Of a stretch of 41,136 nucleotides of DNA, positions 4,907-40,815 are shown piece by piece. Position 1 is the first letter of the stretch; the number at the start of each line of letters is the position of its first letter. The stretch covers positions 5,009-46,144 of the forward strand of contig MHCL01000002.1 of assembly GCA_001816915.1 (NCBI GenBank). The letters run 5' to 3'. Both the position numbers and the translations under genes were made by a program. Under the pieces are notes generated by a model that was given only the letters and a program-made list of their open reading frames with translations, ran no database searches and had not been told where the DNA came from. The DNA is from Candidatus Chisholmbacteria bacterium RIFCSPLOWO2_01_FULL_49_14 (GTDB lineage Bacteria; Patescibacteriota; Microgenomatia; UBA1400; Chisholmbacteraceae).

Positions 4907-5926
4907 TTACTTCAAAGCATAGTAGCTGGATTTGGTGGTGCCTTGGCGCTCGAGAAAGCCTTTATTGACGAGGGCGCTCAAGAGATTGTGCGCCTGCTGG
5001 CGGGATACCTTGAGCTTGCGGGCGAGTTCGGTGGAGGTCATTTCCGGCTGTTCCTGAAAGAGGTCCAAGACTTGGTTTTCCTTTTTTGAAGGGCGATCTT
5101 TGACGGCCAGCGTCCTTGCCGCTTTTTTGGCCCGATCCAAGGCGCCCATGAGCGAATACTTTACCCCGTCGGAAAAGTACTCCAGCCACTCGGTCTTATC
5201 CCCGTCATCGGCGGTGTGCAGCATGTCGGAATAGAGGATTTTATCGATGTCGTAGTAGTCATCCAAAACAAAGTATTGGTTGATGCGGTACCCGTCTTTG
5301 ACAAAGAGAAGCGCGGTGAGCATGCGGCAGACGCGGCCGTTCCCGTCTTCAAAGGGGTGGATAAATACGAACTCGTGATGAAAGATGCCGGCTTTGATGA
5401 TCGTGGGAAGGTTTTTCGTGGCGACAATCCAGGAAATGAGCTGGCGCAGGTCGGCTTCTATCTCATCCCGCTTGTGATGGGGCGGATTGTGCTTGACTTT
5501 GAGGGTCATCGGAGCCGCGCCGCCCTCATATTTGCCGACGACCACCGGCCGGTTGCGGATCTGCCCGGCCGATTCATCGACCCCTTTCATGATCCTGGCG
5601 TGGTTCTCTTTGATGAATTCCAGGGTGATTTCCCGGTCCTTGAACTTCGGCAGTTCGGAGAGGAGCGCAAAGTAATTGACGACTTCTTTCTCATCGCGGT
5701 TGACCGGCACCCGTTCGTCCAAGAGGAGGTTGGTTACTTCCGGCAGGGTCAGCGGATTGCCTTCTATCCGGTTTGAGGCGTAGGTGGATTTTATGAGGTT
5801 GTCGCGCTTGAGGTTTAACTCGAGTTTGCGGGGCAGCCGCAGCCCCTCGATCTGCCCGTAGAGCCGCTCAATCTCGGCAATATTGGTTATGAGCTTATCC
5901 GTGCGTTTGTAGCTTGGCTCGATCAT
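4907..5926 (-). CDS. Fic family protein with C-terminal winged helix
   Basis: Fic motif HPFEDGNGRVCR; N-terminal SNRIEGNPLTLPE; C-terminal TSTELARKLKVSRQQAHNLLSALVNKGFLER; AGGAGG SD upstream. Confidence 0.95.
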   Translation of the reverse strand: MIEPSYKRTDKLITNIAEIERLYGQIEGLRLPRKLELNLKRDNLIKSTYASNRIEGNPLTLPEVTNLLLDERVPVNRDEKEVVNYFALLSELPKFKDREITLEFIKENHARIMKGVDESAGQIRNRPVVVGKYEGGAAPMTLKVKHNPPHHKRDEIEADLRQLISWIVATKNLPTIIKAGIFHHEFVFIHPFEDGNGRVCRMLTALLFVKDGYRINQYFVLDDYYDIDKILYSDMLHTADDGDKTEWLEYFSDGVKYSLMGALDRAKKAARTLAVKDRPSKKENQVLDLFQEQPEMTSTELARKLKVSRQQAHNLLSALVNKGFLERQGTTKSSYYALK

Positions 5927-17395: not shown

Positions 17396-17552
17396 TTCAC
17401 TCTTTCCTCGGTGGGAATATCATGCCGCTTCCGCTTTGGGCCCGATCTGCAGATCAATATAGAATGTCAGAGGCGGCTTCGGATATTCAGCAATGAACGG
17501 ATGCAGGGCTACACTAGAGAATAGTCCTCCCGAAGTGGTACAATTCGCAACT

Positions 17553-18161
17553 GTGAATCTTCACGAACAGCAGCAACTTTCTTCATACCCGCCAATCGCG
17601 GAAGCTTGTGCAGCGCGGCCGTGGATTACGCCACTTTTGCAACAACTGCAGGCAACATATCCCGACGCCTATACCCATTCCCTGCGAGTGGCTCTGCTTG
17701 CCACAAAGCTTGCAGAACGAGAACAACTTTCTGCCGACGATCAACGGCGAATGACCGTAGCCGGGTTAATGCATGACGTCGGGAAAATCGCGCTTGCCCC
17801 GGAAATATTCTCTCAAGAAACATTATCTCCTGAGCAACGCTTGGTCATTCAAACCCACATCCGCCACAGCTATGAACTTGTCAAAGCACATGATGAGACT
17901 ACCGCGCAAATCGTCGTCGGACATCATGAATCTCAACGGAACCCCTATCCACGGGCGCAACAGAGAGCGGACACTCCTTCGCTTTTGCACAAACAGCAAA
18001 AGCTTTTAGCCCTTGCCGATCAGGTTGATTCGCTTCTGTCGGATCAGGCGTACCGGGAAGCTTGGGATCCGGATTCGGTCTTTCAATACCTGACGCAGCA
18101 TTTTACTGATCCGGAATTGATCGACTATGCCATCGGAGTTCGGTCGGAGCTTTCAACATAG
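17553..18161 (+). CDS. HD-GYP/HD domain phosphohydrolase
   Basis: TYPDAYTHSLRVALLATKLA, GLMHDVGKIALAPEIF, GHHE. GTG start 17553 is in frame and 8 nt after TACAAT 17539. Confidence 0.85.
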   Translation: MNLHEQQQLSSYPPIAEACAARPWITPLLQQLQATYPDAYTHSLRVALLATKLAEREQLSADDQRRMTVAGLMHDVGKIALAPEIFSQETLSPEQRLVIQTHIRHSYELVKAHDETTAQIVVGHHESQRNPYPRAQQRADTPSLLHKQQKLLALADQVDSLLSDQAYREAWDPDSVFQYLTQHFTDPELIDYAIGVRSELST

Positions 18162-18225: not shown

Positions 18226-18261
18226 ATACGTCCATCGATGGGAACGTGGTAGAATTTTTCC

Positions 18262-18798
18262 ATGAAGCAACAATCCCGAAGATCGACAAAAAGGGTTTTC
18301 GCATTCATTGACAGTCAAAATCTCAATCTCGGAACAAATAAAGACCTCTCAAAAGGAAAAAAACGCATCTATACAGGATGGAAGCTCGACTTTCGGAAGT
18401 TCAGACAGTATCTCACAGATAAATTTCGTGTCTCAAAAGCATTTCTCTTCATCGGTTATATTTCCCAAAATACGTCACTCTATCAACACCTCAAGTCTTT
18501 CGGGTATACCCTAATCTTTAAGCCGACAACCAAAGATCGATTGGGAAAGCCGAAAGGCAACGTTGACGCCGAACTCGTATTGCATGCCGTCCGCATTGAG
18601 TATGACCATTACGATCAGGCGGTGATTGTTTCCGGAGACGGTGATTTCTATTGCCTTCACGAATATCTTGCAAAACAGGGAAAGCTTCTGCGAATCATTA
18701 TTCCGAATACAAAATCAGAATCCTCTCTGCTCAAGAAATTTCACACCTATAAAACGTTTCTTATTCATGAGAAACATAAGCTTGAATTGAAGCCATAA
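18262..18798 (+). CDS. NYN domain (LabA/DUF88-like) protein
   Basis: VFAFIDSQNLNLG, KGNVDAELVLHAV, QAVIVSGDGDFYCLHEYLAKQGKLLRIIIP. Confidence 0.9.
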   Translation: MKQQSRRSTKRVFAFIDSQNLNLGTNKDLSKGKKRIYTGWKLDFRKFRQYLTDKFRVSKAFLFIGYISQNTSLYQHLKSFGYTLIFKPTTKDRLGKPKGNVDAELVLHAVRIEYDHYDQAVIVSGDGDFYCLHEYLAKQGKLLRIIIPNTKSESSLLKKFHTYKTFLIHEKHKLELKP

Positions 18799-24489: not shown

Positions 24490-24556
24490 TTGCAGGTCGG
24501 AGCTGCACGTCATCTGCAAGCCGCGGAACGCATGGCGCGGGGGAAAGTGGTAATCA
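24490..24556. repeat. Repeat block (degenerate core plus terminal module)
   Basis: gcaggtcggagctgc.. then caagccgcggaacgcatggcgcgggggaaagtggtaat. Confidence 0.7.
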
Positions 24557-24627: not shown

Positions 24628-24900
24628 ATGTTACAAAGTATCAATATGTTAGACCTGCGAAGAAAGATCGGTGAAATTATTGATCAGACGCTTTATCGCA
24701 AGGAACGCTTTCTCGTCAAGAGAAAAAATAAGCCGGTCGCAGTTTTAGTGCCGCTTGAGGACTATGAACTCTTCATGGCCAACGATGAGGATATCGAATT
24801 GTACTCCGACAAGCGCATCTCAGCATTCGCTCATCAAGATCGGTTATCGAAAGAGGAACAACAACTCACCGTTCGTCTGCTTCGGAAATCCAAGACATGA
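24628..24900 (+). CDS. Phd/YefM-type antitoxin
   Basis: LRRKIGEIIDQTLYRKERFLVKRKNKPVAVLVPLEDYELF; ATGA overlap with downstream PIN gene. Confidence 0.88.
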   Translation: MLQSINMLDLRRKIGEIIDQTLYRKERFLVKRKNKPVAVLVPLEDYELFMANDEDIELYSDKRISAFAHQDRLSKEEQQLTVRLLRKSKT

Positions 24901-25328: not shown

Positions 25329-25340
25329 ATTCAGTAAAAG

Positions 25341-25408
25341 CAGGTCGGACCTGGCAGGCGTATGAACCAGATATAATCTGGTTTTTGCCTGGGGGAAGTG
25401 GTAAAATT
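25341..25408. repeat. Repeat block with terminal GGGGGAAGTGGTAAAATT
   Basis: CAGGTCGGACCTG 25341; CCAGATataATCTGG 25367; terminal motif 25391. Confidence 0.85.
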
Positions 25409-25449
25409 TAACGCGATTTCTACTCTTGTTGTGTTACAATAGTTCAACA

Positions 25450-25689: not shown

Positions 25690-25732
25690 CTCTGTCCTTG
25701 ACAGAAAGATAATCTCTAGATAAACTTGTATC

Positions 25733-25984
25733 ATGAAGGTTCAAACCATTTCCACCAAAGAGCTCCGTGAAGATTTTTCCAAGCTGAAGTCTGCAATGGA
25801 GGAAGGAAAATCGCTCCTCTTACTGTATCGCTCCCGGCCGCTTGCGGAAATCAAACCGGTGAAACAGCAAACGCAGAAACTGCGATCGTTTTCCCTGCGC
25901 GAGATGAAGCAATGGATTGCTGATGATCAACTCACGGAAAAACAACAGAGGCGCATCGAGGCGATCATTAACCGTCTTCCTTGA
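25733..25984 (+). CDS. Phd/YefM-type antitoxin
   Basis: MKVQTISTKELREDFSKLKSAMEEGKSLLLLYRSRPLAEIKPV; TTGACA-N17-TAAACT, 6 nt to ATG. Confidence 0.85.
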   Translation: MKVQTISTKELREDFSKLKSAMEEGKSLLLLYRSRPLAEIKPVKQQTQKLRSFSLREMKQWIADDQLTEKQQRRIEAIINRLP

Positions 25985-26396
25985 TTCCTCGGTCATCCTT
26001 TCAGCTCTTGCCTCTCCCAGCGGTGGCTCGAGAAAGATTCTGTACGCCGGAACAAAAGGTAAACTTCGTCTACTCACTTCTCCGTTTGTCATCGAAGAAG
26101 TCGCAAAGCATCTTCATAAGTTAGGTGTGAAGCCCAATGAACTTGAAATTCTTCTGAAGAAGAAAGTGATTCGTGTGATCTCCGATGCTCCTCAACACAT
26201 CATTAAGAAGTTCCACAGCGTGATCGTAGATCCAGATGATGCTCCCATTCTTGCAGGAGCTGTACTATCCGGATCTCATGTCCTTCTTTCTCTTGATAAA
26301 GGCCATATCCTCACAGATCGGGTAAGGAAGGCTCTCAAGCCCCTCCTCGTTTTTTCCCCAAAAGAATTCTGGGAATGGGTAGAAAAGCATCGATAG
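25923..26396 (+). CDS. PIN-domain toxin
   Basis: VFLDSSVILSALASPSGGSRKIL..DPDDAPILAGAVLSGSHVLLSLDKGHIL; start uncertain. Confidence 0.82.
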   Translation: MINSRKNNRGASRRSLTVFLDSSVILSALASPSGGSRKILYAGTKGKLRLLTSPFVIEEVAKHLHKLGVKPNELEILLKKKVIRVISDAPQHIIKKFHSVIVDPDDAPILAGAVLSGSHVLLSLDKGHILTDRVRKALKPLLVFSPKEFWEWVEKHR

Positions 26397-26440
26397 AAGT
26401 CAAAATGTTTGTCGCGCAAAAAACCGAACTGTTTTCTAAA

Positions 26441-26640
26441 TTGCAGGTCGGACCTGCAATAACTATCGGCCGTGTACAGGTCCTATCGAGTCGAACTCGA
26501 TTGTGGCCAAGTCAAACTTGGCTGGCTGGCCTGTACGGGAAATCCGGAGGGATTCCCAGTGGCGTAGAATCCTCCACGGGGTAAGCTTGAGTATTCCACT
26601 CCTGGAGTCCCTGCCTGCGCAGGCAGGGATGAATATTGAA
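26441..26640. repeat. Repeat block: TTGCAGGTCGGACCTGCAA, TCGAGTcgaACTCGA, CCAAGTcaaACTTGG, plus REP-like CCCTGCCTGCGCAGGCAGGG
   Basis: Direct reading of palindromes; REP-like 20-bp palindrome at 26609..26628. Confidence 0.88.
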
Positions 26641-27487: not shown

Positions 27488-27635
27488 GCCAGGCCCAGTC
27501 TGACTGGGTTGTCGAGGTTGACTCGATCCGACCTGGCAGACGTATGAATCAGATCATATCTGGTTTTAATACTTCAGCTACGTGCAGTACGCGCGCTCAT
27601 TCAACTATGCTTCGCCTGGGGGAAGTGGTAAAATA
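27488..27635. repeat. Repeat block: three-way-junction element plus terminal GGGGGAAGTGGTAAAAT
   Basis: tgccaggcccagtctgactgggttgtcgaggttgactcgatccgacctggca (27488..27539) identical to 35204..35255. Confidence 0.9.
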
Positions 27636-27666: not shown

Positions 27667-28263
27667 ATGCTACCACCCGAATTAGTTTCAAGACGCACAG
27701 TTGAGCGAAGGGGGATATCGGCAACTTCGATTGAAGAGGCACTTCCGCTTTCTCATTACGACGAGTTGCATATTAAGGGGTATCACGAACTCGGGTATCA
27801 AGGTTTCCCCTGTATCGTTCTCGGATTCCGTCTGGATGGCCACAGACGGACTATTCCTCGACCTGTTATTCGAATTGGTGACGATATCCTGCCTGGCAAA
27901 GTAGATCTGAACTTGGAATTGTATTTCACCTACGATGCAAGGCCAATTCCTGGGCCGAGATCTTTCACTCTCATTACTGAACATACGTCGAGACACATTC
28001 TTCATAGAGTGAGAGGAGAAGGTCGGATGGGGTACCATGGTCCTGAACTTACTGATTTGTCGGTGACTGTCGGTGAGGTGAAGTATACACTCGAGAGACA
28101 ACCTTCCCAAGAGAATCATCAAGCATTCGCTCTCACCAGAACCGATCCTGATGGCTTTCAATGCTCTCACCTCATGCTCACGTTTCGTGAATTGGATCGA
28201 GAGGGCGTTCGATTGCTTCCCCACTCCTGGGAAGTTACAGAGAGTAATCTTCTTTCCGAATAA
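27667..28263 (+). CDS. Hypothetical cargo protein
   Basis: In-frame ATG 27667 (MLPPELVSRRTVERRGIS); no family recognised. Confidence 0.6.
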   Translation: MLPPELVSRRTVERRGISATSIEEALPLSHYDELHIKGYHELGYQGFPCIVLGFRLDGHRRTIPRPVIRIGDDILPGKVDLNLELYFTYDARPIPGPRSFTLITEHTSRHILHRVRGEGRMGYHGPELTDLSVTVGEVKYTLERQPSQENHQAFALTRTDPDGFQCSHLMLTFRELDREGVRLLPHSWEVTESNLLSE

Positions 28264-28594: not shown

Positions 28595-29464
28595 TTATTG
28601 AGCCTTCCCGGCTAAGAAGTTTAATACACCTGCGGAGCTTAACATTTCCGTAACATGAGACGCGCTTTCTCCTGATGGACGAGCATACATATTAAAATCA
28701 ATTCTTTTGAGAGGATTGCGATCTCTTGACTGATCCAAGTAATCTGTTGCTCCTTTGAAAAATCCCGCCATACTTTCTTCTAGGCTAAGGCCAACTCCGG
28801 CATCAGCGGCAAATCCGGTCCCGACCGCTGGAACAGTCAAAGAATCTGCTCCCGTCATATTTGCTGCGATAGAGGCGCTGAAAGTAAACTGCGCCATATC
28901 CTCAACGGTCATGCGATCTCCTGGCGGAGTTACATTGGTCAGGATTACGACTCGTATACCTTTTTCGGCTAAATTTCCGGAAGGTGCTGGCATCGACCCG
29001 CCGGAGCATATTGCAACGTGCTCGCCGACTATTTCTAAATCTTGCATTGTAGTCGCAACAAGCGTGTCGTCTCGTATTTCTTGGGGTGTTTTTCCTATTT
29101 TCATTCCAGTTTCTTCTGTTAGAAATTGAGAGAACTGAGCTGCGGCTTCAAGTGCTTCCTTTGTATTCTCCGATCTCATTCTTGTTAACAGTTGTATAAC
29201 TTTCTTGTTGTAGGTGCCGAATAGTTTGTCACCAGCTACCGAGGCAATTCTCCTTTCAACCGCACCGCCACCGAGCCTTAACCAAGGAGTAGTCGGACAC
29301 ATGATGGCTTCCGTGGGAGCAGCAGCGATATCACCCAAGTTCACTCCGATCAAGCTGCCCCGATATGGGTATTCCCAAACGCGCTGGCTTTCGCCGACCC
29401 CAAATCTTGGTTCTCTGGGTTGTAAGCCTTCTCTAAAAGGTAAGGACATCGGATATTCACTCAT
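28595..29464 (-). CDS. Macro-domain-like protein
   Basis: VNLGDIAAAPTEAIMCPTTPWLRLGGGAVERRIASVAG and LTVPAVGTGFAADAGVGLSLEESMAGFFKGATDYL match macro-domain signatures. Confidence 0.65.
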   Translation of the reverse strand: MSEYPMSLPFREGLQPREPRFGVGESQRVWEYPYRGSLIGVNLGDIAAAPTEAIMCPTTPWLRLGGGAVERRIASVAGDKLFGTYNKKVIQLLTRMRSENTKEALEAAAQFSQFLTEETGMKIGKTPQEIRDDTLVATTMQDLEIVGEHVAICSGGSMPAPSGNLAEKGIRVVILTNVTPPGDRMTVEDMAQFTFSASIAANMTGADSLTVPAVGTGFAADAGVGLSLEESMAGFFKGATDYLDQSRDRNPLKRIDFNMYARPSGESASHVTEMLSSAGVLNFLAGKAQ

Positions 29465-29528: not shown

Positions 29529-29800
29529 GCCAGGTCCGGCCTGTACGGGAAATCCCGAGGTGTCAAGGCATTTCCACCCCCGGAGTGGAGGAATTTCCCT
29601 AGGTGTCCCTCCAAAGGCGGGCAGGCTTGAGGTTACCACCTCCCAGGTGGAAGATGTGCCAGGTCCGACCTGGCAGGCGGGATCTGGAAGGCGGATTAGG
29701 GACAGGACGGAGGGGTACGACCCGCCTGCGTTGAAACTACGGCGAGGTAAACAGTATTAACAAATATTCTCTGGAACTGGGCTGGGGGGGAAAAAGTGGT
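29529..29800. repeat. Repeat block (multi-module)
   Basis: CAGGTCCGGCCTG, CGGGAaaTCCCG, CCACCTcccAGGTGG, TGCCAGGTCCGACCTGGCA, gcgttgaaactacggcgaggtaa..attctctggaactgg. Confidence 0.9.
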
Positions 29801-29829
29801 TTTACAGCTCTACTGATGAACTATTGAAA

Positions 29830-30574: not shown

Positions 30575-30758
30575 GCGTACAGGTCGGATCTGCAAGAACT
30601 ATCGGTCGTGTACAGGTCCGACCTGTACGGGAAATCCCGAGGTGTTCTCAAGATTGCACCTCTAAGGTGAAAGACCGCACAATGCTCAAGCGAGCACTAC
30701 GACAAGCTCAGTGTGAACAAGCCGCGAAACGCATGGCGAGGGGGGAGTTGTAATAGGG
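30575..30758. repeat. Repeat block (GTACAGGTCCGACCTGTAC, CGGGAaaTCCCG, CACCTctaAGGTG, terminal module)
   Basis: Direct match to blocks at 31427, 32715 and 35074. Confidence 0.9.
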
Positions 30759-31345: not shown

Positions 31346-31828
31346 TTTGCAGGTCGGACCTGCAAAGGCGTAAATCCAGAGGTAAACTGGAAAAGCAGGT
31401 CGGACCTGCAATAACTATCGGGTCGTGTACAGGTCCGGCCTGTACGGGAAATCCCGAGGTGTTCTCAAGGCTGCACCTCTAAGGTGCAAGAGGGAAGAGC
31501 GTATCATCCTCGAACGTCAAGGCTTTACCGTTCCCGGAACGTCTAGGCGTAACCCGGAACGTCAGGGCGAAAACTCCCTAGGTGTCCCTCCAGAGGCGGG
31601 CAGGCAAGGCTATTCCACCTCCCAGGTGGAAGACGGGGCTACGAAGGGACAGGGTGGAAGAGGTGCGGCGCGCCTGCGTTGAAACTACGGCGAGGTAAGC
31701 AGTACTAACGCATATTCTCTGGAACTGGCCTGCCTGCCCGCTTGAGTTTCCGGCTGCGAAAACGGCTAGACAGCAGTTTTGAGCAAGCCGCGAAACGCAT
31801 GGCGTGGGGGGGGAAGTGGTAAAATTTG
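31346..31828. repeat. Largest repeat block, ending in GGGGGAAGTGGTAAAATT
   Basis: TTTGCAGGTCGGACCTGCAAA at 31346..31366; GTACAGGTCCGGCCTGTAC; CCGTTCccGGAACG; full ~155-nt terminal module. Confidence 0.92.
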
Positions 31829-31834
31829 GGCGAA

Positions 31835-32638
31835 ATGTCTGAGGAAGAACATCCACCGCAGCCAATTCGAGATAAGCTCAAAGAGGTAAAAGGACGACTT
31901 ACCCAAGATGTTATCGAACAAGTTTTGGGGAGTATCGGAGAAAGATTCAGGAGCGTATATCTTAAACACCAGCAAGACAAAGCGCTGTATTTTGAATCTT
32001 CGGTTCTGCATTCCATTCCCGTAAGACCTCTCGTTTATCTGAATGTACTTGAACGCGCTTCTTTTGTCGCATCAAATGTTCTCAGTGGGGACGAATTTAC
32101 CGATCAGATTGAGGTAAAGCCGCAGGAGAATGCAAGCCATCATGAACGGAAAATTCAAATTCCTTTGCGAAAGGATCAGCTCATGAATGGTGGATATGCC
32201 GTAATGGTCTTGCCCACCGATTATCGATGTTCTAATCCGGATACCGTTTCTCAGATAAAGGCGGGAGCCGGTCAGGATTTTCAAGAAGTTTTTGACGGTA
32301 ACCCATGGAGAGCAATGATGGGAAGAAGTCCTGAGTTATATAAAAGAGATGAGTGGTCAGCAAAAGCAAATGATTTTATCGTCATGCATCGATTAGGAAG
32401 CTCACTCTACCTAAGAAGAATTCGACCTTTTCAGGATGAGATTGAACCTCTTGAGCGAAGGAAATTTGGAGAAGATGGCGAAGATGCAGTCATTCTTCAA
32501 CGACGGATATTTCTGGAATCAGAAACAGAAGTACCCGCCGAGTTGAATATGATGCGAAATTCTGCTCGACTTTACCGACTTCATGAGGTCGATAACTCCT
32601 CGGAGTTGGTAGGCTCGCACTTCGGTCCGGATAAGTAA
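31835..32638 (+). CDS. Hypothetical cargo protein
   Basis: 267-aa ORF directly downstream of the repeat-borne TAAAAT (9 nt gap); no family recognised. Confidence 0.65.
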   Translation: MSEEEHPPQPIRDKLKEVKGRLTQDVIEQVLGSIGERFRSVYLKHQQDKALYFESSVLHSIPVRPLVYLNVLERASFVASNVLSGDEFTDQIEVKPQENASHHERKIQIPLRKDQLMNGGYAVMVLPTDYRCSNPDTVSQIKAGAGQDFQEVFDGNPWRAMMGRSPELYKRDEWSAKANDFIVMHRLGSSLYLRRIRPFQDEIEPLERRKFGEDGEDAVILQRRIFLESETEVPAELNMMRNSARLYRLHEVDNSSELVGSHFGPDK

Positions 32639-32639
32639 A

Positions 32640-32935
32640 TGATCCTCAAACGTCAAGAAAATTCCGTTCTCGGAACGTACTGATGTGCCAGGTCGGACCT
32701 GCAAGAACTGCGTGTACAGGTCCGACCTTTACGGGAAATCCCGAGGTGTTCTCAAGATTGCACCTCTAAGGTGAAAGACCGCAACATATCCCTAGGTCTC
32801 AAGGCTATACCACCTCCAAGGTGGAAGACACTCTCCCCAATTTTTCAGAGAATTTGAACAATCAGAATCCTTTGCAGGTCGGACCTGCAAGAACTATCGG
32901 TCGTGTACAGGTTCTATCGAGTCAAACTCGATATT
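32640..32935. repeat. Repeat block
   Basis: CAGGTCGGACCTG 32690; CAGGTCCGACCT 32716; CACCTctaAGGTG; TTGCAGGTCGGACCTGCAA 32872..32890; TCGAGTcaaACTCGA. Confidence 0.88.
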
Positions 32936-33286: not shown

Positions 33287-33530
33287 TGCCAGGTCCGACC
33301 TGGCAGTCGCCTGGCAGGCGGAATCTAGAGAGCGCATGCAGGGACAGGACGGAAGGGCGGGGCCCCACTTCTCCGCCAGTGGGCGGATACGCTGGGGGCA
33401 CCGCAGTACTAACGTATATTCTCTGGAACTGGCCTGCCTGCCCGCTTGAGTTTCCGGCTGCGAAAACGGCTAAATAGCAGTCTTGAGCATGCAGCGAAAC
33501 GCATGGCTGGGAGGAAGTGGTAATATTTTG
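33287..33530. repeat. Repeat block with terminal module ending GGAGGAAGTGGTAATATT
   Basis: TGCCAGGTCCGACCTGGCA 33287..33305; gcagtactaacgtatattctctggaactggcctgcctgcccgcttgagtttccggctgcgaaaacggct shared with 31700 block. Confidence 0.92.
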
Positions 33531-35073: not shown

Positions 35074-35424
35074 CGTACAGGTTCGACCTGTACGGGAAAT
35101 CCCGAGGTGTCTAGAGAAAGCCACCCCCGGAGTGGAAGAAATTCCCTAGGTGTCCCTCCAGAGGCGGGCAGGCAAGGCTCTTCCACCTCCCAGGTGGAAG
35201 ACGTGCCAGGCCCAGTCTGACTGGGTTGTCGAGGTTGACTCGATCCGACCTGGCAGGCGTGGATACGGCGAGGCGAGGCCCGCCTTCGTTGAAACTATGG
35301 CGAGGCGATGCCCGCCTTCGCCGAGGCTCCGGCGGGCGAGGCCATCCTCCGTCAAGACTACGGAATGGTACAACAGTACTAACACAAATTCTCTGGAACT
35401 AGCCTGGGGGAAGTGGTAAAATTA
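35074..35424. repeat. Repeat block including the three-way-junction element and terminal GGGGGAAGTGGTAAAATT
   Basis: GTACAGGTTCGACCTGTAC; CCACCTcccAGGTGG; 35204..35255 identical to 27488..27539. Confidence 0.92.
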
Positions 35425-38524: not shown

Positions 38525-39754
38525 ATGCAAAATCAATTTCCAAAAAACTGGCGAAAAGTGAAGTTGGGAGAAGTTGTTGATATTAACCCTCGCCAAATAA
38601 ACAAAGATAATTTTCATAAAGAAATTGAATATGTGGACATATCCGCTGTGGGTACGGCAACACTAGAGTCGACTACAACTCATTTGCTATCAGAAGCTCC
38701 AGGAAGAGCCAGAAGGCTTGTCAAAAATGGGGATACAATTATTTCTACTGTCCGCCCAAATCGAAGATCATTTTACTACTTCAAAAACCCAACGGATAAC
38801 TTAGTTGTTTCTACTGGTTTTGCTGTGCTTTCATCTAAACTCAAAATCACAGATTCAAGATTTATATACTATCTCGTTACTCAAAAATCGTTTACACATT
38901 ATTTAACGTCTAATGTAAAAGGCTCCGCATACCCTGCTATTACTACTGATGTTATTGAGAATGCCGAAGTTCTAATACCCGCTTATGAAGAACAAAATCA
39001 AATAGCTTCCATTCTCTCTTCTTTTGATGACAAGATTGAGGTAAATATCAAAATTGCAAAAACACTTGAGGAAACGGCACAGGTGATTTTTAAGGAGTGG
39101 TTTAAAAAATTCAAATTTCCCGGACATGAAAAAGTAAAAATGATTGATTCGGAATTAGGAAAAATTCCGGAAGGGTGGGAAATTAAGAAACTAAGCGATT
39201 TAGTATCCACACAATATGGGTACACAGAATCGGCGTCGGAAAAAGAAATTGGACCGAGGTTTTTACGAGTAATGGATATCAATAAATCTGATTGGATAGA
39301 TTGGTCAAGTGTCCCTTATTGCAAGATAAACGATAAAGACTTATTAAAATATCGGTTAAGTGCTGGGGATGTCGTAATCGCTCGTATGGCAGATCCAGGG
39401 AAGGTAGCAATTATTGAGGAAAATGTAAATGCTGTTTTTGCATCATATTTAATTAGACTAAAACCATTGAATAAAAGTGTAGGAAATTACTTTCTTTACT
39501 TTTATCTAACATCGTCGCAATACCAAGGTTTCATTTTTGGTTCCAGCACAGGCACAACGAGACAAAGCGCTAATGCAAGGGTAATTACTGATTGTTATTT
39601 GGCAGTGCCAAAAGACGAAATTATCAAAGAATTTGAAACCATTGCAAACCTTCTTAGAAAAATGATTCAAACAAAAGTAAAAGAAAACCAAAAACTTGCA
39701 GAAATGCGAGATTTGCTTTTGCCGAAGTTGATGAGAGGAGAGTTAAGAGTATGA
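38525..39754 (+). CDS. hsdS: Type I restriction specificity subunit (HsdS)
   Basis: Two target-recognition repeats: PKNWRKVKLGEVVDI..PAYEEQNQIASILSSFDDKIE and PEGWEIKKLSDLV..MRDLLLPKLMRGELRV. Confidence 0.95.
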   Translation: MQNQFPKNWRKVKLGEVVDINPRQINKDNFHKEIEYVDISAVGTATLESTTTHLLSEAPGRARRLVKNGDTIISTVRPNRRSFYYFKNPTDNLVVSTGFAVLSSKLKITDSRFIYYLVTQKSFTHYLTSNVKGSAYPAITTDVIENAEVLIPAYEEQNQIASILSSFDDKIEVNIKIAKTLEETAQVIFKEWFKKFKFPGHEKVKMIDSELGKIPEGWEIKKLSDLVSTQYGYTESASEKEIGPRFLRVMDINKSDWIDWSSVPYCKINDKDLLKYRLSAGDVVIARMADPGKVAIIEENVNAVFASYLIRLKPLNKSVGNYFLYFYLTSSQYQGFIFGSSTGTTRQSANARVITDCYLAVPKDEIIKEFETIANLLRKMIQTKVKENQKLAEMRDLLLPKLMRGELRV

Positions 39755-40815
39755 AGTATATTTTTATAGATTCAAACCAATATAGACATATATTTTCTTT
39801 ATCGGAAGGCTTTTCTGATAGCGTACATGATTTGTTAATAAGGCTTATCGATTCTAATCATGCAAAACTTCTATTACCCCAACAAACAAGGGAAGAGGTA
39901 GAGCGAAACCGCTATAGACAGTGGCCGGAAAACGAAATAAAAAACATTGAATCAAAAATAACAAATTTAAAAGACTTGCTTGAAAAAAGAGAAAAAGATT
40001 TAGGGTCTTTTAAGGTTTATAAAGACCTTGTTGAAGAGGTAAATTCAGAAATAAATAAGTTAGAGAAAGAAAAAGAAAAGATTATTAGCACCTTTACTAA
40101 TAACAGGAGTAAGGCCAATCAGAAGTTAAAAAAACTATTTGGAAAGGCCGTCACAATAGACGAAACCTCAAAAATTAGGCAACTCGCCGATATAAGATTT
40201 AAGAAGAAAAATCCACCCTATGGAGATAATGTTGGTGATTCTCTAATCTGGGAAAGCCTTCTTTCATTTTTTGAAAATATCAGGACAGTTTATTTAATTT
40301 TTGTTGCTAATGATAAACAGGCTTGGGGAAAGTATGGTTTCGACAGAATTCTACAGGATAAGTTTAAGAAGCAGATAACGGGTCGGAGAATTAAATATAT
40401 AAACAAGCTTTCTGACATTCCTGAAATAACTGTTGAGGAACAAGAAAAAATAAAAGCTGAAGAACAAGATAATTCTAAGAGGAATGCTGTGATTGATTTT
40501 GTAAACAGCCAGAGTTTTATTGACGCAGGAGAGAAAGCAAATAAGTTGCTGTTGTTTAAAAATCTCCTTACAACCGATGACTATCAAGATATTCTACGAG
40601 CAAGTTTATCCAATCATGAAATATACCAATCATTCTTTACTGCGATCCCTCTTAGTAAGTTGGTAATAGGTGATGATGACTATGTCATTAAGGAAATCGA
40701 ATCCATTGATGCTGAATTATGGAATCGTTTTGCAAAAAAGTATGAAGTTTCGTTAAAAAGACAATCGGATCAACAAAATGAGGCAAAAGAAGACGAAGAT
40801 GATATTCCATTTTAG
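39751..40815 (+). CDS. PIN-like (DUF4935-type) domain protein, putative RNase
   Basis: KYIFIDSNQYRHIF, LLPQQTREEVERNR, GDNVGDSLIWESLLSF, IFVANDKQAWG acidic PIN positions; 4-nt overlap with hsdS. Confidence 0.8.
   Translation: MKYIFIDSNQYRHIFSLSEGFSDSVHDLLIRLIDSNHAKLLLPQQTREEVERNRYRQWPENEIKNIESKITNLKDLLEKREKDLGSFKVYKDLVEEVNSEINKLEKEKEKIISTFTNNRSKANQKLKKLFGKAVTIDETSKIRQLADIRFKKKNPPYGDNVGDSLIWESLLSFFENIRTVYLIFVANDKQAWGKYGFDRILQDKFKKQITGRRIKYINKLSDIPEITVEEQEKIKAEEQDNSKRNAVIDFVNSQSFIDAGEKANKLLLFKNLLTTDDYQDILRASLSNHEIYQSFFTAIPLSKLVIGDDDYVIKEIESIDAELWNRFAKKYEVSLKRQSDQQNEAKEDEDDIPF

Follow-up and report, generated by a model that had tools for sequence, protein, structure and literature searches.

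Introduction

A TA-like signal some 12 bp ahead of the start codon has been described for leaderless genes (PMC3160421), as have -10 elements that adjoin open reading frames in Deinococcus-Thermus (PMC12340547), and genes with such an ORF-adjacent -10 are known from Actinobacteria, Deinococcus-Thermus and other groups (PMC3160421, PMC12340547). No report for Patescibacteria was found in a literature search that lay mostly outside subscription journals. The locus analyzed here resembles these genes in having a -10 box about 6–12 nt before the start codon, often with a preceding TG, little Shine-Dalgarno (SD) sequence and a weak or absent -35, and differs from them in that one copy of the box comes from a repeat.

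Mobile promoters are repeats that bear outward promoters. As in those, a near-identical promoter sequence precedes a number of unrelated genes in this genome, but it is confined to 11 kb, no homologous copy beyond chance-like matches was found in 53 relatives or in a species-level genome collection, and most of the genes that it precedes have promoters of their own. A likeness also exists to REP elements with REP-associated tyrosine (Y1) transposases, since some hairpins of the repeat blocks flank the Y1 genes of contigs C6 and C4, those on one side being inverted relative to those on the other; the terminal motif, however, is not clearly present beside the Y1 genes, and the scores of the Y1 proteins do not reach the NCBIfam cut-off. 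Integron cassette arrays share the same-orientation repeats between toxin-antitoxin genes, whereas here the genes lie on both strands, the repeats are composite and variable, and no integron integrase was found. The best candidates were two Xer-like recombinases scoring 120 and 73 bits against a TIGR02249 cut-off of 265, in a genome estimated to be 90% complete.

Genomic setting of the repeat array

The window, a stretch of 41,136 nt, corresponds to positions 5009–46144 of contig C2 in a 1.21-Mb draft genome (G000) of 29 contigs, of which 1.19 Mb were scanned; repeat arrays are prone to misassembly in such a draft. Genome sizes across the order range from about 0.5 to 1.4 Mb. Ribosomal protein L30 was not detected in any of the 28 genomes of the order that were searched, including this one; we take the missing L30 to be a mark of Patescibacteria, and the organism is therefore probably a Patescibacterium.

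A toxin-antitoxin island occupies 24.4–35.4 kb of the window and contains Phd/PIN, RelE-like/HTH and HicA-type genes together with orphans; type I restriction-modification genes come next. The spaces between the island genes contain composite repeat blocks of short hairpins. Two further proteins were noted in and near the island. A 289-aa protein encoded at 28595–29464 (minus strand) weakly matches a model for ADP-ribosylglutamate hydrolase (macrodomain), at E 0.0004 and far under the cut-off, and a protein of 354 aa that begins with a PIN_12 domain is encoded at 39751–40815, directly 3' of hsdS and beside the type I restriction genes.

Copies and conservation of the terminal motif

The earlier note on this DNA had described the blocks as ending in a conserved motif. 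This description holds, and eight copies were located, five intact (three exact 21-mers and two near copies) and three decayed, all on the plus strand:

25387–25407, plus strand, exact 21-mer GCCTGGGGGAAGTGGTAAAAT
27614–27634, plus strand, exact 21-mer GCCTGGGGGAAGTGGTAAAAT
35402–35422, plus strand, exact 21-mer GCCTGGGGGAAGTGGTAAAAT
31810–31825, plus strand, near copy GGGGAAGTGGTAAAAT, with the -10 hexamer TAAAAT at 31820–31825
33511–33526, plus strand, variant GAGGAAGTGGTAATAT, with a weak promoter matrix score of 2.9
about 24537–24556, plus strand, decayed copy GTGGTAATCATT
about 29783–29805, plus strand, decayed copy GTGGTTTTACAG, pointing towards the 3' end of a gene on the minus strand
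about 30738–30756, plus strand, decayed copy GTTGTAATAGGGG, pointing towards the 3' end of a gene on the minus strand

Shuffling of the window gave an expectation of 0.00 for GCCTGGGGGAAGTGGTAAAAT at up to three mismatches, while GAAGTGGTAAAAT with up to two mismatches occurs nine times in the window versus 1.17 expected. Conservation among the copies breaks off sharply after the final T of TAAAAT. The sequences downstream of the five intact copies are unrelated, as are the 5' flanks of the three exact 21-mers to one another. GCCTGGGGGAA, which lies upstream of the -10, is conserved to the same degree as the -10 itself; this exceeds what promoter function alone would need, and would be accounted for if the copies are recent and share a common origin.

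A scan of 1.19 Mb of the genome at up to three mismatches revealed no array module outside the window, all copies falling within the same 11 kb. Of the other matches at this threshold, the one at 18240 has only the -10 in common with the motif, and the rest look like chance. Among 53 relatives, two lone one-mismatch matches were found and nothing more, and a species-level genome collection yielded 24 single, chance-like matches across unrelated phyla; the single match in Parcubacteria from this collection looks like coding sequence.

Related versions of the motif had also been claimed at 17531 and 18241, where the following boxes lie:

17539..17544, plus strand, -10 hexamer TACAAT, 8 nt before the in-frame GTG at 17553 of an HD-domain gene, score 9.6
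18250..18255, plus strand, -10 hexamer TAGAAT, 6 nt before the ATG at 18262 of an NYN-domain gene, score 10.0

The gaps of 8 and 6 nt and the match to the extended -10 were confirmed, but the 5' part of the module is missing from both sites. Gaps of 6–9 nt, as here and before 31835, are the rule in this organism. Judged by sequence, these boxes are ordinary, strong promoters of the leaderless type rather than copies of the module.

Leaderless-type promoter spacing across the genome and the order

A simple dicodon method was used to call genes in 1.19 Mb (1,159 genes, with starts as called by us), and the test set comprised the 533 genes that start with ATG and are preceded by 60 nt or more of intergenic DNA. 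TATAAT-like hexamers peak sharply at gaps of 6–12 nt before the ATG, with 27 at gap 6 and 20 at gap 9 compared with about 3 elsewhere. A -10 box at these gaps was present in 96 of the 533 genes versus 18.0±4.3 in dinucleotide shuffles, and an extended -10, with TGN in front, in 42 genes versus 1.04. When contig C2 was left out, 82 genes with a -10 and 38 with an extended -10 remained among 502. The boxes carry T at -15 in 49% and G at -14 in 63% of cases, neither position having been used for selection, and an SD 5-mer is rarer in genes with a -10 box (5/96) than in the others (68/437; Fisher p 0.005).

The same peak was observed in 200-kb samples of four other genomes of the order (G001, G004, G007 and G012), with 13–31 genes each versus 1.1–3.6 in shuffled sequence. 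It was absent from 200 kb of E. coli K-12 treated with the identical pipeline, where 0 of 71 genes had such a box and 2.2 were expected. To judge by its position and sequence context, this spacing is a signature of leaderless genes, and leaderless expression therefore looks common in this small-genome group, with a bearing on start-codon annotation and on the design of expression tools. Many genes of the lineage seem to need just a 9-nt extended -10 close to the start codon. The order-wide spacing is a wider and better-supported result than the claim that the repeat drives the next gene.

The terminal motif was then set against this background with a promoter matrix trained outside C2. TGGTAAAAT scores 8.0, which 0.013% of coding positions attain, while the decayed copies score at most 3.3. 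As a sequence signal, the proposal in the earlier note that the motif matches an extended -10 is well supported by this score and by the genome-wide enrichment of -10 boxes. As a sequence-based check of that proposal, it had pointed to sense-orientation enrichment upstream of genes; the proposal passed, because TGGTANAAT occurs there 12 times in sense and twice in antisense, at 0.375 per kb versus 0.014 per kb in coding DNA.

The gene at 31835 and its repeat block

Only one gene of the window, at 31835, has a repeat copy at leaderless distance:

31675..31835, plus strand, 3' part of the repeat block up to the next start codon, with repeat families D9, D11, D13, D15 and D16
31725..31809, plus strand, REP-like long hairpin inserted ahead of the terminal motif (fold z -2.75), with copies in G000, G001, G002, G005 and G015
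31835..32638, plus strand, orphan gene of 267 aa with its ATG 9 nt downstream of the repeat's -10

The distance of 9 nt between TAAAAT and ATG is as previously claimed. The hexamer at 31820–31825 is one position off TATAAT and is the sole sense site near the gene that scores at least 5.5; no convincing -35 was found upstream of it, 2–3 of 6 positions matching. A G-run was considered by eye as a ribosome-binding site, and was rejected as lying more than 15 nt from the ATG and not being AGGAGG. No homologue of the encoded protein was found in the 92 other genomes of the order, which places the start codon beyond comparative check.

We consider it fairly likely that the terminal motif (TGgTAAAAT) is an extended -10 promoter element of the leaderless type widespread in this lineage, with which a composite, REP-like repeat ends on its 3' side; the repeat would have been copied or recombined within the toxin-antitoxin/restriction island. 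RNA polymerase would act at the motif with little or no need for a -35 and would start about 7 nt past the hexamer, so that a start codon 6–12 nt downstream would yield an mRNA almost without a 5' UTR. The gene at 31835 is probably expressed from the repeat's -10 in this manner, while the remaining copies would be either redundant beside the next gene's own promoter or decayed. If this is true, a repeat that ends at an extended -10 hands over the whole expression signal in one step, and such a supply would be a cheap route to switching on new genes.

Genes behind the other copies

The earlier note had suggested that the repeat may express whatever gene follows. This generalization is not supported. 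At three of the five intact copies, the gene behind carries its own promoter, located after the repeat and ahead of the start codon: 25450, behind the 25387 copy, has TGTTACAAT at gap 9; 33583, behind the 33511 variant, has TTGACT-17-TATACT; and 35503 (hsdM), behind the 35402 copy, has TTGACT-17-TACAAT, 12 nt before the ATG. The gene at 24628, behind the decayed copy at 24.5 kb, likewise has its own TTGACA-16-TATACT. A competing promoter is therefore missing at no more than two of the five intact copies. The second of these precedes the orphan ORF at 27670, where an exact 21-mer stands 35 nt before the ATG with no nearer promoter-like site; from its position, this ORF may be transcribed from the repeat's box. 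Its protein has no homologue in the 92 other genomes of the order.

These own promoters at most downstream genes are also what would be expected if the motif were merely where a recently multiplied repeat stops, its likeness to a -10 being functionless at most or all copies. The confinement of all copies to 11 kb and the 21-nt identity, which extends upstream past what a promoter needs, fit this explanation as well. We nevertheless regard it as rather unlikely, given that the motif conforms to the genome's own extended -10 consensus with a score in the top 0.013%, and that at 31835 it stands at the preferred spacing and without an alternative promoter.

A different possibility is that the repeat was kept and spread since any gene landing behind it is expressed. 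The coincidence of the 3' boundary with the -10 would fit such selection, as would the finding that both possible clients, 31835 and 27670, are orphans. A plus-strand gene follows all five intact copies and one of the three decayed ones, the other two facing minus-strand genes; this association is only suggestive (Fisher p 0.11). Against this possibility, three of the five intact copies precede genes that carry promoters themselves, and beyond chance-like single matches no copies were found outside the island in the scanned genome, in 53 relatives or in the genome collection. It thus appears improbable. We attach similarly little weight to a related proposal, in which the repeat would turn promoterless ORFs into leaderless genes and the island would grow by orphans added behind it; since the 3' edge is the -10 box, an ORF joined 6–12 nt beyond it would be expressed without a ribosome-binding site.

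Composition of the blocks and probable transfer between genera

By sequence comparison, the blocks are mosaics of hairpin repeats, composite and REP-like. In the 31810 and 33511 blocks the long REP-like hairpin separates the AGTACTAAC...CTGGAACTGG module from the terminal motif, while in the 35402 block this module is joined straight to the motif. Relatives of the long hairpin occur as single copies elsewhere in the genome and in other genera. The block at 25336–25409 contains a hairpin followed by T's, which the other blocks lack, and no conserved terminator common to all blocks was found. As for the origin of the blocks, Rfam gave no match to a known RNA family even at E 0.5, the terminal motif has no inverted partner of the kind considered for the end of an insertion element, and no match to a plasmid or phage source was found.

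Two of the hairpin modules in the blocks recur on either side of genes for Y1 (REP-associated) transposases, at C6:25860–26546 and C4:19713–20402 of the same genome. Upstream of the C6 gene, 38 nt are identical to window positions 29552–29589, and an inverted, less similar copy is located at its 3' end. The C4 gene is flanked in opposite orientations by the GAACGTCAAGGC...GTTCCCGGAACG hairpin type. Near the C6 gene, a three-mismatch match to the terminal motif at C6:26592 may be due to chance.

The Phd/PIN pair at 25697–26452 is 88% identical to a pair in G001 (L014, C3), which belongs to another genus, and accompanying block pieces are up to 97% identical. Because these identities are far above those of two neighbouring alignments (72–74%), the pair and its repeats probably moved between the lineages by horizontal transfer. 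In G001 the block adjoins an hlyD-like gene partway along its length, and the 5' part of this gene was not found next to the block. The unit common to the window and G001 excludes the terminal motif and ends inside hairpin repeats.

That the motif is instead the site at which an integron-like or site-specific system joins cassettes, with its promoter likeness incidental, would suit the sharp 3' boundary, the uniform orientation of the copies and the toxin-antitoxin cargo, but is very improbable given that no transferred unit was found to end at the motif, that the motif lacks an inverted partner, that genes lie on both strands, and that an integron integrase was not found, both Xer-like recombinases being far under the cut-off.

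Among the hairpin repeats at 29549–29595, 31449–31636, 32736–32831 and 35097–35204, the stem sequence varies while the loop, of the TCAAGGCTATTC type, is kept. In the same repeats the arm sequence occurs a third time, behind the stem, as in AGGTG...CACCT...AGGTG and GAACG...CGTTC...GAACG.
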